64,000 nt of DNA, taken from contig JAEUVZ010000069.1 in the NCBI GenBank assembly GCA_016786665.1, positions 1-64,000 on the forward strand, given 5' to 3'. This DNA comes from Flavipsychrobacter sp. (GTDB lineage Bacteria > Bacteroidota > Bacteroidia > Chitinophagales > Chitinophagaceae). Positions 1,788 through 6,344 of this stretch are shown here, in pieces. Within the stretch, counting starts at the first letter, position 1, and each line of letters opens with the position of its first letter. Made by a program: the position numbers and the translations under genes. The notes under the pieces are model-generated. The model was not told where the DNA came from. It made no database searches and was given only the letters and a program-made list of their open reading frames with translations.

Positions 1788-3881
1788 TTATGCATTCACT
1801 AAGTTAAGGAATTCATCCTCAGTTAATATGCTCACCGTTCCCAGCTTTTTGGCTTTCTCCAGTTTAGATCCGGCGTCTTCGCCCACTACAAGGTAGTTCA
1901 GCTTGCTGCTTACCCCGCTTAGTATACTGCCGCCTTTTGCTTCCGCCATGGCTTCCGCTTCAGAGCGCTTCATCTTTGTCAGCGTACCGGTAAAGAGGAA
2001 TGTCTTTCCCGCCAGTTCGCCGGTTGCTTGCTCGCCGCCTTTATGCTGGTTCACCAGGTTCAGCCCTTCTTTTTCCAGCATATCCAGCATGTGCCGGTTC
2101 TCCTCGTTGTGAAAAAACTGCGCTACCGATGAAGCCACCTTAGGGCCAATATCCTCCAGCGTGCTGAGCTTTTCTACATCCCAGTCGTAGAAATCGCGAA
2201 TGTGGGTTACAGCGTTGGCCAGCGTTTTAGCTGTGGTTTCGCCTACAAAGCGGATACCCAGGCCATATATCAGCCGGCTCAGCGGCTGCTTCTTGGAGTG
2301 CTCTATGGCCTGCTTCAGGTTGGTGATGGATTTATCGCCAAAACCACCCAGCTTGCTCACTGCTTCCCAGTCAATATGATATAGGCCGGGGATGTCCTTC
2401 AGTAGTCCCAGCTCGAAGAATTTTATCACGTTGGCACCACCCAGGCCACGTATGTCCATGGCATCTTTGCTGGTGTAGTGAATGATGCGCTCTGCCACCT
2501 GTACCGGGCAGTTGATATTTACGCAGCGCCACGCGGCTTCCTCCTCGTTCTTTTCCAGCGCTTCCCGGCATGCCGGGCAACTGTGCGGAAATGCGATTGG
2601 CCTTTCTTCCCCGGTGCGCAGTTCAGCAAGCGATTTCACTATGTAGGGAATCACGTCGCCGGCCCGCTCCACCACTACGGTATCACCTATACGCAAGTCT
2701 TTCTCCCGTATCACATCTTCGTTAAAGAGCGATATTGACCGTACTGTTACCCCGCCAATAGGCACCGGCTCTATCTTGGCAACCGGTGTCACCGCACCCG
2801 TTCGTCCCACCTGGAACTCCACGTCCAGCAGCTTGCTGGTCGCCTGCCGTGCCTTGAACTTGTAGGCCACCGCCCAGCGCGGGTGATGGGTGGTCATACC
2901 CATCTTATCCTGCATGTCAAAATCGTTCACCTTTATCACCAGCCCATCCACTTCAAAGGGCAGGTCATCGCGCCTCACTTCAAAGTCGTCGCAGAATTGT
3001 ATCACCCCTTCTATGTTATCAAACTTGCGCATCTCTTTCGCCGGCGTGGGAAACCCCAGGCTATACAGGTATTGTATTGAGTCGTAGTGCGTGGTAAGGG
3101 TAGCCGGGCGCTGGTTGTCGGCCGTGGTATAATAACTGATGTGGTAAAGGATGGCGGATAGCTTCCGTTTGGCTACTTCCTTCGGGTCCAGTATGCGCAG
3201 CGTGCCGGAAGCCGCATTGCGTGGGTTGGCCAGCGGCGAAAGCCCTTCGGCAATGCGCTGCTCGTTGTATGCGGCAAATACGTTTTTGTGTATCACCACT
3301 TCGCCCCTTATTTCTACCTGCCCCACCTGGTCCTTCTGAAAGTTGGCCGAGAGCGGTATTGATTTTATCTGCCGAATGTTGGCCGTTATCTCTTCACCCA
3401 TCACACCATCGCCCCGGGTGGCGCCCCGGGTCATCCTGCCGTTCTCGTACACCAGCGATATGCTGGCCCCGTCATATTTCGGCTCTACGCAGTATTCTAT
3501 TTTATCCGTTCCCGCCAGTTCTTTACACTTGCGGTCAAAATCCATAAGGTCTTCGGCATTGTACGTATTGTCCAGGCTCAGCATCGGCACCAGGTGCGCT
3601 ACCGGCGGAAACTTCTCGCTCAGCCCCATAGCTACCCGCTGCGTGGGTGAGTCTTCGGTTACCTGCTCCGGATACTGTTCTTCCAGGCTCTTCAGCTTTT
3701 TAAATAGGGTATCATACTCGTAGTCGCTCAGCAGCGGCTCGCTCTGCACATAATATTTCCAGTCGGAGAAGTTGATGACTTCCCGCAGTTGTGCCACTGC
3801 ATCTTCTATGTTCTCGGGGGTGCTTGCTATCAGCGATTTTGCCTGTTCATAAAGGCGCTTTTCGTCTTGTGCCGTGTACAT
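1788..3881 (-). CDS. ligA: NAD-dependent DNA ligase LigA
   Basis: Seals nicks in duplex DNA using NAD+ during replication and repair. From the ATG at 3881 the protein has 697 residues, a typical length; the GTG two codons earlier (3887) is an alternative. The order is adenylation domain with nucleophilic lysine in the motif EPKYDG (K135), OB fold, a four-cysteine zinc finger around residues 435-455 (CPAC and CVNINC), helix-hairpin-helix region with LEDIGPKVA, and a C-terminal BRCT domain beginning near GKTFLFTGTL. It lies 20 bases downstream of the YciO-type gene in a same-strand run. Confidence 0.97.
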   Translation of the reverse strand: MYTAQDEKRLYEQAKSLIASTPENIEDAVAQLREVINFSDWKYYVQSEPLLSDYEYDTLFKKLKSLEEQYPEQVTEDSPTQRVAMGLSEKFPPVAHLVPMLSLDNTYNAEDLMDFDRKCKELAGTDKIEYCVEPKYDGASISLVYENGRMTRGATRGDGVMGEEITANIRQIKSIPLSANFQKDQVGQVEIRGEVVIHKNVFAAYNEQRIAEGLSPLANPRNAASGTLRILDPKEVAKRKLSAILYHISYYTTADNQRPATLTTHYDSIQYLYSLGFPTPAKEMRKFDNIEGVIQFCDDFEVRRDDLPFEVDGLVIKVNDFDMQDKMGMTTHHPRWAVAYKFKARQATSKLLDVEFQVGRTGAVTPVAKIEPVPIGGVTVRSISLFNEDVIREKDLRIGDTVVVERAGDVIPYIVKSLAELRTGEERPIAFPHSCPACREALEKNEEEAAWRCVNINCPVQVAERIIHYTSKDAMDIRGLGGANVIKFFELGLLKDIPGLYHIDWEAVSKLGGFGDKSITNLKQAIEHSKKQPLSRLIYGLGIRFVGETTAKTLANAVTHIRDFYDWDVEKLSTLEDIGPKVASSVAQFFHNEENRHMLDMLEKEGLNLVNQHKGGEQATGELAGKTFLFTGTLTKMKRSEAEAMAEAKGGSILSGVSSKLNYLVVGEDAGSKLEKAKKLGTVSILTEDEFLNLVNA

Positions 3882-3901
3882 AAGCACAAAGAAAAGGGTA
3901 T

Positions 3902-4519
3902 TTAGCCAATTATACTTATGTCGCCCGCCCCCTCGCGTACCAGTTCGGGGTAGCCTGCGGTGCAGTCTATTACGGTAGATGGCACCACTTCGCCTATGCC
4001 GCTGTCTATTACTATATCCACCACGCTGCCAAAGCGGTCGTGCATCAGTTCGGGGTCGGTATAATACTCTATATCGTCATCCATGGGCAGCGACACGCTC
4101 ATGATGGGATGTCCCAGTTGGCGCACTATTTCCTGGGATATCTTATGGCCCGGCACCCGTATGCCTACGGTGTCTTTTTTTGTTTTCAGCATTTTGGGCA
4201 CCTGCTTGCTGGCGTTGAAGATAAACGTGTAGGCGCCGGGGAGTGCCGCCTTTAGCAAGCGGAATATCGGGGTGTCTACGCTCTTGGTGAAATCGCTGAT
4301 ATGGCTGAGGTCGGAGCAAACGAACGAGAACTGCGCCTTTTTGGGGTCTATATTCTTTATCCGGCAAATGCGTTCTATCGCAGCGGTATTGTAGATGTCG
4401 CAACCCAGCCCGTAAATGGTATCGGTGGGGTAGATGATCACTCCCCCACTCTTCAGGCAGTCTATTACGGTCTGAATATTTCGCTGCTGCGGATTGTCCG
4501 GATGAATATTGAGTAGCAT
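3902..4519 (-). CDS. yciO: YciO/Sua5/YrdC-family threonylcarbamoyl-AMP synthase-like protein
   Basis: A 205-residue YrdC-fold protein. The start IHPDNPQQR (residues 5-13) is the same as I recall for E. coli YciO, followed by the nucleotide-binding IYPTDTIYGLGCD, the KKAQFSFVCSDLS block, GIRVPGH and a C-terminal STVIDC. Family members TsaC/Sua5 make threonylcarbamoyl-adenylate for the tRNA t6A modification; YciO is a paralogue with weaker or unclear activity. Whether this copy supplies t6A depends on whether a full TsaC/Sua5 exists elsewhere. It starts 6 bases after the NadR-like gene ends. Confidence 0.85.
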   Translation of the reverse strand: MLLNIHPDNPQQRNIQTVIDCLKSGGVIIYPTDTIYGLGCDIYNTAAIERICRIKNIDPKKAQFSFVCSDLSHISDFTKSVDTPIFRLLKAALPGAYTFIFNASKQVPKMLKTKKDTVGIRVPGHKISQEIVRQLGHPIMSVSLPMDDDIEYYTDPELMHDRFGSVVDIVIDSGIGEVVPSTVIDCTAGYPELVREGAGDISIIG

Positions 4520-4525
4520 ATCGTT

Positions 4526-5047
4526 CTATGTATTATTTCGTATGGCTTCCAGGGCCCGTTCCAGGCGCTCTTTCTGCCCGCCGCTTATGTCGGCCCAGGG
4601 CAGCCCGCTCTGCTGTACTATATCGCGGTATATGTTGTAAAAATAATGCCGCTGGCTATGCTCCCGGTGCTCGCGCAAGGGGTCTTCTTCCCAGGCCACA
4701 TCTATATTGGTGAGCAGGTAGAGGTCGTATCGCCGCCGGGCTATAGCTTCCAGTATCCATTTATGACAGCGGTCATACCGGTGCTCGCTCCATACGCGCA
4801 CCACCTGCAGGTCGGTATCGCACACCAGTAATGTTCCTGCTTTCATCGCCTGTTCATCCTCGCTGCGCAGCTGTCCCTTTGCTATCTGCAGCAGGTCCGC
4901 TTCCTCGTAGGGCCTTGCCAGCTGCTCCAGGTACTCCCGCGCATACTCGGGCACCCACTGCGTGCCTAATGCATCCGCAAGTTGCCGGCTCAGGGTACTC
5001 TTCCCGGTCGACTCCGGCCCTATCACTACTATCTTCTTCAGGGTCAC
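4526..5047 (-). CDS. NadR-like nicotinamide riboside kinase (AAA_28 P-loop ATPase)
   Basis: A small P-loop kinase of the kind that forms the C-terminal half of NadR, which phosphorylates nicotinamide riboside to NMN. I choose the GTG at 5047: it gives MTLKKIVVIG followed by the Walker A motif GPESTGKST (residues 10-18), and its GTG overlaps the TGA of the PAP2 gene by four bases, a classic coupled junction. The GTG at 5077 would add ten lysine-rich residues. Also visible are VPEYAREYLE and CDTDLQVVRVWSE, typical of the family. The adenylyltransferase half of full NadR is missing. Membership in a PnuC operon supports the assignment. Confidence 0.85.
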   Translation of the reverse strand: MTLKKIVVIGPESTGKSTLSRQLADALGTQWVPEYAREYLEQLARPYEEADLLQIAKGQLRSEDEQAMKAGTLLVCDTDLQVVRVWSEHRYDRCHKWILEAIARRRYDLYLLTNIDVAWEEDPLREHREHSQRHYFYNIYRDIVQQSGLPWADISGGQKERLERALEAIRNNT

Positions 5048-5667
5048 CGCAGCTTTCTTTTTCTTTTGTGCAGCCACTTATTGCCCAGGTGGCAGAGCCA
5101 GGCGCTGCCCGCCCCCACCGCTGCGCCCAGCAGCACGTCGCTCGGGTAGTGGTCTCCTGAATACAGCCGGCTATAGCCTATACCACCGGCGTAGAGGCAT
5201 GCGGGTACCGCCACATACCACTTTTTATATTGCAGGCTAAGGGTCGCAGCCGTACTAAATGCTATGGACGTGTGCCCGGAGGGCAGGCTGTGCCCGCTCT
5301 CTTTTCGGTAAGGTATTATATCGGCATAGGTCTCATAGGGCCGCGGGCGGTCAGCCGCATATTTTATGGCATAGGTAATGCCCGTCGTCACCACCAGGCT
5401 GGCCAGGGTCTGCAGGCCCAGGCGTTTGTGCGTGCTGTCGTTCCAGGCATAGCCATATAGTAGCTGTGCCGCCGGCGCGGCAAGAGCCACCCCGTAGCTG
5501 GTATAAGAAAATGCTTCCATGGTTGCCGAGCCCCCGGGACGATGCAGCGAGCGCAGCCAGCGTATATCGGCCGGCTGTGCGGACGCCCTGCCACACAGCA
5601 GAACTACTATTGCCACGACCACGAAGCATCGCGCTGCCGTTGCTGCTTTTTGTATAATTTTCTCCAT
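5044..5667 (-). CDS. PAP2-family membrane phosphatase
   Basis: A 207-residue acid phosphatase/phosphatidic acid phosphatase-type protein. An N-terminal hydrophobic segment (about residues 14-27) is followed by the three PAP2 motifs: KYAADRPRP (102-110), SGHSLPSGH (124-132) and SRLYSGDHYPSD (166-177), containing the catalytic histidines. Several membrane segments lie between them. Substrates in the family range from lipid phosphates to undecaprenyl pyrophosphate. The gene lies between pnuC and the NadR-like kinase, overlapping pnuC by 61 bases and the kinase by 4, so it is translationally linked to nicotinamide riboside salvage; a role for it there is inference only. Confidence 0.9.
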   Translation of the reverse strand: MEKIIQKAATAARCFVVVAIVVLLCGRASAQPADIRWLRSLHRPGGSATMEAFSYTSYGVALAAPAAQLLYGYAWNDSTHKRLGLQTLASLVVTTGITYAIKYAADRPRPYETYADIIPYRKESGHSLPSGHTSIAFSTAATLSLQYKKWYVAVPACLYAGGIGYSRLYSGDHYPSDVLLGAAVGAGSAWLCHLGNKWLHKRKRKLR

Positions 5668-6245
5668 TCTATATATCCGAATATAGCGACAATAAATAAG
5701 AATAAGGTGAGCCCTGCGGTCAGCCACAATCCTTTGGTTACCAGTAGTGGAATGGCTAGCGCGTTCGATATATTGAGCAGTATCCAGTTCTCCAGTTTGC
5801 GCCTTGCCAGCAGCCACATCCCCGCCCAGGCTGTTGCGGAAACCAGCGCATCCCAGGCAGGCACGGTAGAGTCGGTGTAACAGGCCAATACGGTGTACAG
5901 CAACGCCCAGCCCAGCACCACCACCGCGGCCGAAATGCTTTGCTCCCTGGGGGTCCACCTGGTGATGGGCAACGCCACGGAGCCTTTCCGGCTCAGCCAG
6001 TGCGCCCAGCCATAGATACTCATTACCAGGTAGTACGCATTCAGCGCCGACTCCGCATACAGTTTGGCATCCAGCATCAGGTACACATACAGCAGGGTGC
6101 TTACTATCCCGGCAGGGTAGAGCCATACATTGTTGGCGCGGGCCAGTAATACCTGCAGCACTCCGGCGCCGACAGCTATCCATTCCCACACGCTTGTTGC
6201 CATTACCTGGCGCAGCAATTCATTTCCCCACTGGCCTGTTTCCAT
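5607..6245 (-). CDS. pnuC: Nicotinamide riboside transporter PnuC
   Basis: Facilitates nicotinamide riboside uptake, driven by intracellular phosphorylation. The 212-residue protein from the ATG at 6245 has about seven hydrophobic segments and the PnuC hallmarks YAESALNAYYLVMSIYGWAHW (split here as YAESALNAYY and YGWAHW) and KLENWILLNISN near the substrate-binding region. A GTG at 6269 would give eight more residues. It is the first gene of the pnuC-PAP2-kinase unit and is divergent from the sugar dehydrogenase gene, with 99 bases between starts. In most PnuC proteins the ENW motif is followed by W; here it is L, a mild divergence. Confidence 0.9.
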   Translation of the reverse strand: METGQWGNELLRQVMATSVWEWIAVGAGVLQVLLARANNVWLYPAGIVSTLLYVYLMLDAKLYAESALNAYYLVMSIYGWAHWLSRKGSVALPITRWTPREQSISAAVVVLGWALLYTVLACYTDSTVPAWDALVSATAWAGMWLLARRKLENWILLNISNALAIPLLVTKGLWLTAGLTLFLFIVAIFGYIEWRKLYKKQQRQRDASWSWQ

Positions 6246-6344
6246 GCGGTAAAGGTAACCACGCACCACACAAATAACAATCCGCCGCGCTCTAAACCCG
6301 TTTATTGGCGTAATTTTATTGCCGTGTTATAAAAAACGATAGAT

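Follow-up and report, generated by a model that had tools for sequence, protein, structure and literature searches.

The window, the 64,000-nucleotide stretch of Flavipsychrobacter sp. DNA analysed here and a part of the 3.5-Mb genome G000, carries on its minus strand a gene for a PnuC-family nicotinamide riboside (NR) transporter, followed by a PAP2 phosphatase gene, a gene for a ribosylnicotinamide kinase and then by tsaC and ligA (Table 1). The Pfam matches of the first three genes all lie above cut-off. Translation of pnuC likely starts at ATG 6245, the listed open reading frame opening upstream at GTG 6269. The kinase frame opens at GTG 5077, which gives a 34-nt overlap with PAP2, and offers a second start at GTG 5047, which gives one of 4 nt; comparison with relatives favours the latter, since the conserved domain begins at this point and since, where PAP2 is missing, a kinase start overlapping pnuC by exactly 4 nt is available in 11 of 15 pnuC-kinase loci. 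Both overlaps described in the original prediction, of 61 and 4 bases, are real, the shorter one given the start at GTG 5047. An Rfam search of the window found no riboswitch before pnuC, three tRNAs being the only matches at gathering score. Downstream of the kinase, tsaC is found in 19 of the 20 kinase-bearing named loci, which were drawn from the best 80 of 196 confirmed relatives of the window PnuC. The ligase reaction of LigA uses NAD and releases NMN; in the window its gene belongs to the pnuC-kinase run and comes after tsaC, an order also shown by the ligA cluster c9 in several relatives (e.g. L071, L072, L080, L081 and L093).

Table 1. Genes and overlaps of the pnuC-PAP2-kinase run in the window
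Feature	Positions	Strand	Basis and remarks
pnuC, NR transporter family, 212 aa	5607..6245	-	PF04973 174.4 bits; TIGR01528 69.7 bits, cut-off 42.45
PAP2 phosphatase, 207 aa	5044..5667	-	PF01569 81.9 bits; opens with ATG
NadR-type ribosylnicotinamide kinase domain alone	4526..5047	-	PF13521 132.4 bits; alternative start GTG 5077
tsaC/Sua5, next in run after kinase	3902..4519	-	TIGR00057 195.8 bits, cut-off 123.2
ligA, NAD-dependent DNA ligase	1788..3887	-	PF01653 and others
pnuC/PAP2 overlap, 61 nt	5607..5667	-	reading frames
PAP2/kinase overlap, 4 nt, GTGA	5044..5047	-	kinase start taken as GTG 5047

Identity of the encoded proteins

The transporter belongs to the PnuC family by both PF04973 and TIGR01528, and the PnuC structure 4qtn was its only sequence match in the PDB (overall alignment). 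The phmmer matches of the kinase are the NadR chains 9x6f, 8x7f, 1lw7 and 6gye; the gene is without an adenylyltransferase domain, and the model of bifunctional NadR, TIGR01526, reached 107.7 of 341.15 bits over the kinase part of the model only. The locus resembles the PnuC-NadR systems for NR salvage, for example of Haemophilus influenzae and Lactococcus lactis, in placing a PnuC-family transporter beside a ribosylnicotinamide kinase domain, but differs from them in that the window kinase stands alone, without the NadR adenylyltransferase domain, and in having a PAP2 gene in between. Given its kinase neighbour and its position in the PnuC tree, the transporter is plausibly specific for NR, and the two genes plausibly constitute an NR-salvage pair.

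The protein encoded between these two is a member of the PAP2 superfamily, with profile matches to PAP2 models only. It carries at residues 102-177 the full signature, given in the available part of its source as K(X6)RP-(X12-54)-PSGH-(X31-54)-SR(X5)H(X3)D (PMC7413402), and this is exact in 12 of 13 aligned PAP2 rows, L005 having ASGH for PSGH. An AlphaFold model from a 12-row alignment (mean pLDDT 87.3) best fitted the phosphatidylglycerophosphate phosphatase of Bacillus subtilis (5jki, TM 0.72/0.74), LpxE of Aquifex (6ebu, 0.62/0.76) and PgpB of Escherichia coli (8bm3, 0.55/0.49), which were the only fold matches with E under 0.001; soluble class A acid phosphatases (7f17/7f18, 1eoi) ranked behind, and human G6PC1 was matched as well. 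The top sequence matches are membrane lipid phosphatases too. The window protein shares the complete signature with the three best structural matches but is only 21-27% identical to them, has a signal-peptide-like N-terminus ending in AQ, and stays below the cut-offs of the NCBIfam equivalogs SepP (53 of 250 bits), PgpB (36.1 of 261) and PRK11837 (28.9 of 229). Its predicted helices are only weakly hydrophobic, with values over the compared stretch that are intermediate between those of LpxE and of a soluble acid phosphatase. Together with a basic C-terminus, the signal-like N-terminus would have the catalytic motifs face the periplasm. The protein is without a 5_nucleotid_C domain match and does not fall among the 5'-nucleotidases of the NadN/UshA type. 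G000 carries a split 5'-nucleotidase at L204:1096-2980, made up of a 5_nucleotid_C gene and, behind it, a gene that was assigned by eye as metallophosphatase-like and has a Tat-like N-terminus.

The overlaps in relatives

The triad order pnuC-PAP2-kinase is shared by 16 distinct loci. In 14 of these the PAP2 ATG lies 37-61 nt inside pnuC, the exceptions being L111 and L175, and sits on the codons of a near-terminal W-(R/K)-K motif of PnuC. In the window ATG GAG AAA is the other-frame reading of PnuC codons for E-W-R-K, and the relatives begin with ATG-GAR-AAR (MEK), or ATG-GAA-GAA in L183. The MEK start is thus a by-product of the last conserved codons of PnuC, and the PAP2 signal-peptide region is in part overprinted on the variable tail of PnuC. 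The position of the PAP2 start inside these codons makes co-transcription and translational coupling of the genes probable. A 4-nt overlap of PAP2 and the kinase gene is far from universal: apart from the window, only L008 and L013/L075 allow it, and the other triads compared have starts from 17 nt overlap to 1 nt gap. The gene calls in the neighbourhood tables are mechanical open reading frames.

Distribution of the triad and of PAP2

The best 80 of the 196 PnuC relatives comprise 11 triads, nine pnuC-kinase loci without PAP2, 55 loci with a monooxygenase gene and five with none of these, some of the five lying on short contigs. Genomes were further sampled by even draws from the family (117 genomes) and the class (159 genomes); in some genomes first-look candidates outnumbered those scored. 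At the thresholds used, the family set has PnuC in 107 genomes, the kinase in 106 and window-type PAP2 in 57, and pnuC and the kinase gene are no more than 1 kb apart in at least 75 (114 kinase places entered this linkage count, second fragments of one kinase frame being left out). The triad occurs in seven family genomes, pnuC-PAP2 alone in one (G100) and PAP2-kinase alone in two (G017 and G115), and in G014, G030, G054 and G113 the kinase gene lies no more than 5 kb from PAP2 in an efflux-type run of the order OEP-HlyD-PAP2-AcrB-kinase. PAP2 is more than 5 kb from any pnuC or kinase gene found in 42 of the 57 genomes that carry it. A weaker PAP2 about 2.6 kb from pnuC in G080 was rejected as a case of linkage, as genes on both strands lie in between. 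The tables of PAP2 neighbourhoods cover one or two places in each of 53 of the 57 PAP2-bearing genomes, G022, G025 and G095 not being included; the commonest address read was adjacent to genes of the valS cluster, of which one member was tested by Pfam. Such a gene adjoins PAP2 in 25 of the 66 rows that the family contributes to the first PAP2 tree. An NR-salvage-type pnuC-kinase pair with PAP2 embedded in it by overlaps is thus supported and conserved within one lineage, but the adjacency, conservation of which the original prediction took as a test of its scheme, holds in only a part of the family: PAP2 touches pnuC in 8 of the 57 PAP2-bearing family genomes, and in the class set the window itself is the only case among the 26 genomes that have both genes.

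L145, L153, L154 and L179 have PAP2 within an RND efflux-type run (OEP, HlyD, PAP2, AcrB-type) followed by a NadR-type kinase gene, and L145 has two PAP2 genes in tandem.

Occurrence of PAP2 and the pnuC-kinase pair without each other

In the second PAP2 tree, from which L180_4 and two own-genome paralogues were left out, a 19-row fork (94/88, not starred) unites 14 triad rows and two PAP2-kinase rows with the PAP2 of G005, G105 and G079. These three genomes (completeness 99%, 97% and 89%) had no PF04973 match above cut-off, one match of 15 bits being present in G079, and their matches to the kinase family PF13521 were weak and below cut-off. G079 has the order PAP2-tsaC-ligA with a Fic-domain gene upstream, and since this order is kept, the simplest reading is that pnuC and the kinase gene have gone and PAP2 has stayed. 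The PAP2 gene of G005 (L146) lies 132 nt after a sugar transferase gene of the Bac_transf family, which works on lipid carriers. Conversely, pairs without PAP2 (L007, L011, L020, L023, L064 and L070) are interleaved with the triads in the PnuC tree, and pairs without PAP2 likewise interleave in the kinase tree, at mostly modest support in both; two of the three monooxygenase-linked PnuC rows and L241-L246 were left out of the former. PAP2 and the pnuC-kinase pair can thus each do without the other.

Their joint presence in genomes is no more frequent than chance in either set. PnuC is present in 53 of 57 family genomes with PAP2 against 54 of 60 without it (p 0.74). The class set has PAP2 in 42 genomes, PnuC in 104 and both in 26, so that PnuC accompanies PAP2 in 26 of 42 genomes against 78 of 117 without it (p 0.58).

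Some contacts lie outside the main lineage. The PAP2 of G032, which has a triad, and of G100, which has pnuC-PAP2, group together (96/90), while their PnuC are placed well apart from each other in the PnuC tree, that of G032 on a flagged long branch. In G017 and G115 the kinases are on long branches outside the main kinase group and the PAP2 is inside the main PAP2 clade, while L111 and four efflux-type runs have PAP2 outside that clade. By our rough estimate, such scattered contacts with pnuC or the kinase gene would rarely be expected from random placement among some 3,500 genes.

PnuC loci with a monooxygenase and PafA

In all 55 monooxygenase loci among the best 80 of 196, a gene for a flavin monooxygenase-like protein of the acyl-CoA dehydrogenase fold stands behind a window-type pnuC on the same strand (e.g. 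L077:3597-4679 and L061:3631-4746). PDB relatives of the product include Rv3094c, 3-HSA hydroxylase and p-hydroxyphenylacetate hydroxylase C2, and its position next to pnuC suggests a possible oxidation of the imported ligand. In 11 of the best 80 named loci (10 Mucilaginibacter and 1 Hufsiella; L039, L040, L042, L047, L048, L049, L051, L054, L055, L065 and L066), a TonB receptor gene, pnuC, the monooxygenase gene and a gene for an alkaline phosphatase of the PafA type, a phosphatase of periplasmic kind, follow one another on one strand, as in L055:505-6534. Family tests were made on L055, whose PafA passes the NCBIfam cut-off (791 vs 650), and the other ten PafA share 65-82% identity with it. 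A kinase gene was found in none of these 11 loci. They resemble the window in having a phosphatase gene within the run of a close PnuC, but PafA is of another phosphatase family (PF01663). Phosphatase genes thus do associate with PnuC. Among the matches listed in a search of the open-licence literature, by title and start of abstract, there was none on an operon of PnuC with PafA, the monooxygenase or TonB.

Discussion

We favour, with a probability of roughly 55%, the interpretation that PAP2 is a general membrane phosphatase which is expressed with NR salvage, a lodger sharing the expression of its neighbours and not their pathway. PnuC would import NR and the kinase would trap it as NMN, and this pair would stand at the head of a run leading on through tsaC to ligA. 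In one lineage of the sampled family, the place between pnuC and the kinase gene was taken up by a PAP2 gene, whose own family also has members elsewhere in the class. The PAP2 product is most likely embedded in the membrane with the active site on the periplasmic face, and would act on a lipid phosphate of the undecaprenyl pyrophosphate, phosphatidylglycerophosphate or lipid A 1-phosphate type. The mostly remote location of PAP2 from pnuC and kinase genes, its persistence without these partners within the triad clade and the lack of a co-occurrence excess all argue for such a role, as do the membrane lipid phosphatases among the top folds and the Bac_transf gene near the PAP2 of L146. However, UppP/BacA is present in all 16 genomes checked, so C55-PP hydrolysis leaves no obvious gap to fill, and a missing UppP was rejected as the reason for PAP2. 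The scores for lipid-phosphatase equivalogs far below cut-off and the weakly hydrophobic helices also count against a lipid phosphatase, and PAP2 meets pnuC or the kinase gene in other branches (G032, G100 and L111) and lies near the kinase gene, separated from it by an RND gene, in G014, G113, G054 and G030.

The original prediction suggested that PAP2 could strip phosphate from NMN so that NR could be taken up by PnuC, which would give it a dedicated role. As a periplasm-facing phosphomonoesterase it would convert NMN, or NAD breakdown products, to NR, which the kinase would phosphorylate again inside; a PAP2-fold ectophosphatase would be coupled to PnuC and the riboside kinase in a strip-import-rephosphorylate relay of fixed ratio, its start codon having arisen within the conserved codons near the end of pnuC and the scattered contacts representing repeated recruitment. 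We consider this relay unlikely as a whole. Its appeal lies in the placement of PAP2 between transporter and kinase, in the overlap into pnuC in nearly all triads, in the linkage in other branches (the G032 triad, pnuC-PAP2 in G100 and PAP2-kinase without pnuC in G017 and G115), and in the PafA-type phosphatase of 11 of the best 80 named pnuC operons. The modelled fold also matches human G6PC1, a membrane enzyme of the PAP2 fold with a soluble substrate. The folds of NadN and e(P4) differ from that of PAP2. The chemistry itself is known in H. influenzae, where, in the available part of the source, periplasmic NadN and the outer-membrane-anchored e(P4) are the phosphatases that feed PnuC (PMC10694654). 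These would do the same job as PAP2 in the relay, but the window protein matches only PAP2 families, and any NMN activity is putative.

The survey lends the dedicated role no support. PAP2 is retained in G005, G105 and G079, where pnuC and the kinase gene were not found, pnuC-kinase pairs live without PAP2, and seven triads compare with at least 75 family genomes in which the pair lies within 1 kb; PAP2 and PnuC do not co-occur in excess, and the best folds are those of lipid phosphatases. The repeated contacts of PAP2 with pnuC may be one old event, since a single origin of pnuC-adjacent PAP2, as one clade, was not rejected in an AU test (p 0.29). A match to nadA was present in 15 of the 16 genomes checked, the one without a match being G000, which would suit the relay. 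However, nadC was found in G000, where a kynurenine route may exist or the assembly may have a gap, and the genome has its separate 5'-nucleotidase-type gene pair. NAD auxotrophy was accordingly rejected as the driver. In the open-licence literature, searched by title and start of abstract, there was no paper on PAP2 with PnuC or with bacterial NMN use.

Slightly less probable again is that PAP2 is a broad periplasmic phosphomonoesterase for scavenging of phosphate or nucleosides, with NMN as one of many substrates and the site giving an occasional benefit. The weakly hydrophobic helices, the signal-peptide-like N-terminus ending in AQ and the soluble class A acid phosphatases further down the list of matches point this way, but the top matches in both fold and sequence are membrane lipid phosphatases. 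That the adjacency is an accident of a single genome, or the PAP2 start misread with no true overlap, is hardly credible: in the class scan the window does stand alone, but the survey refutes the idea with 16 distinct triads, 14 of which have the PAP2 start at the same pnuC motif.

If PAP2 fed PnuC after all, these Bacteroidota would possess a membrane-bound means of using external NMN, unlike NadN and e(P4). The PafA-pnuC loci are the better place to test the idea of a phosphatase working with PnuC. If PAP2 is instead a general membrane phosphatase lodged in the run, a conserved overlap and co-directional gene order need not mean a shared pathway, which would call for caution in assigning function through guilt by association.
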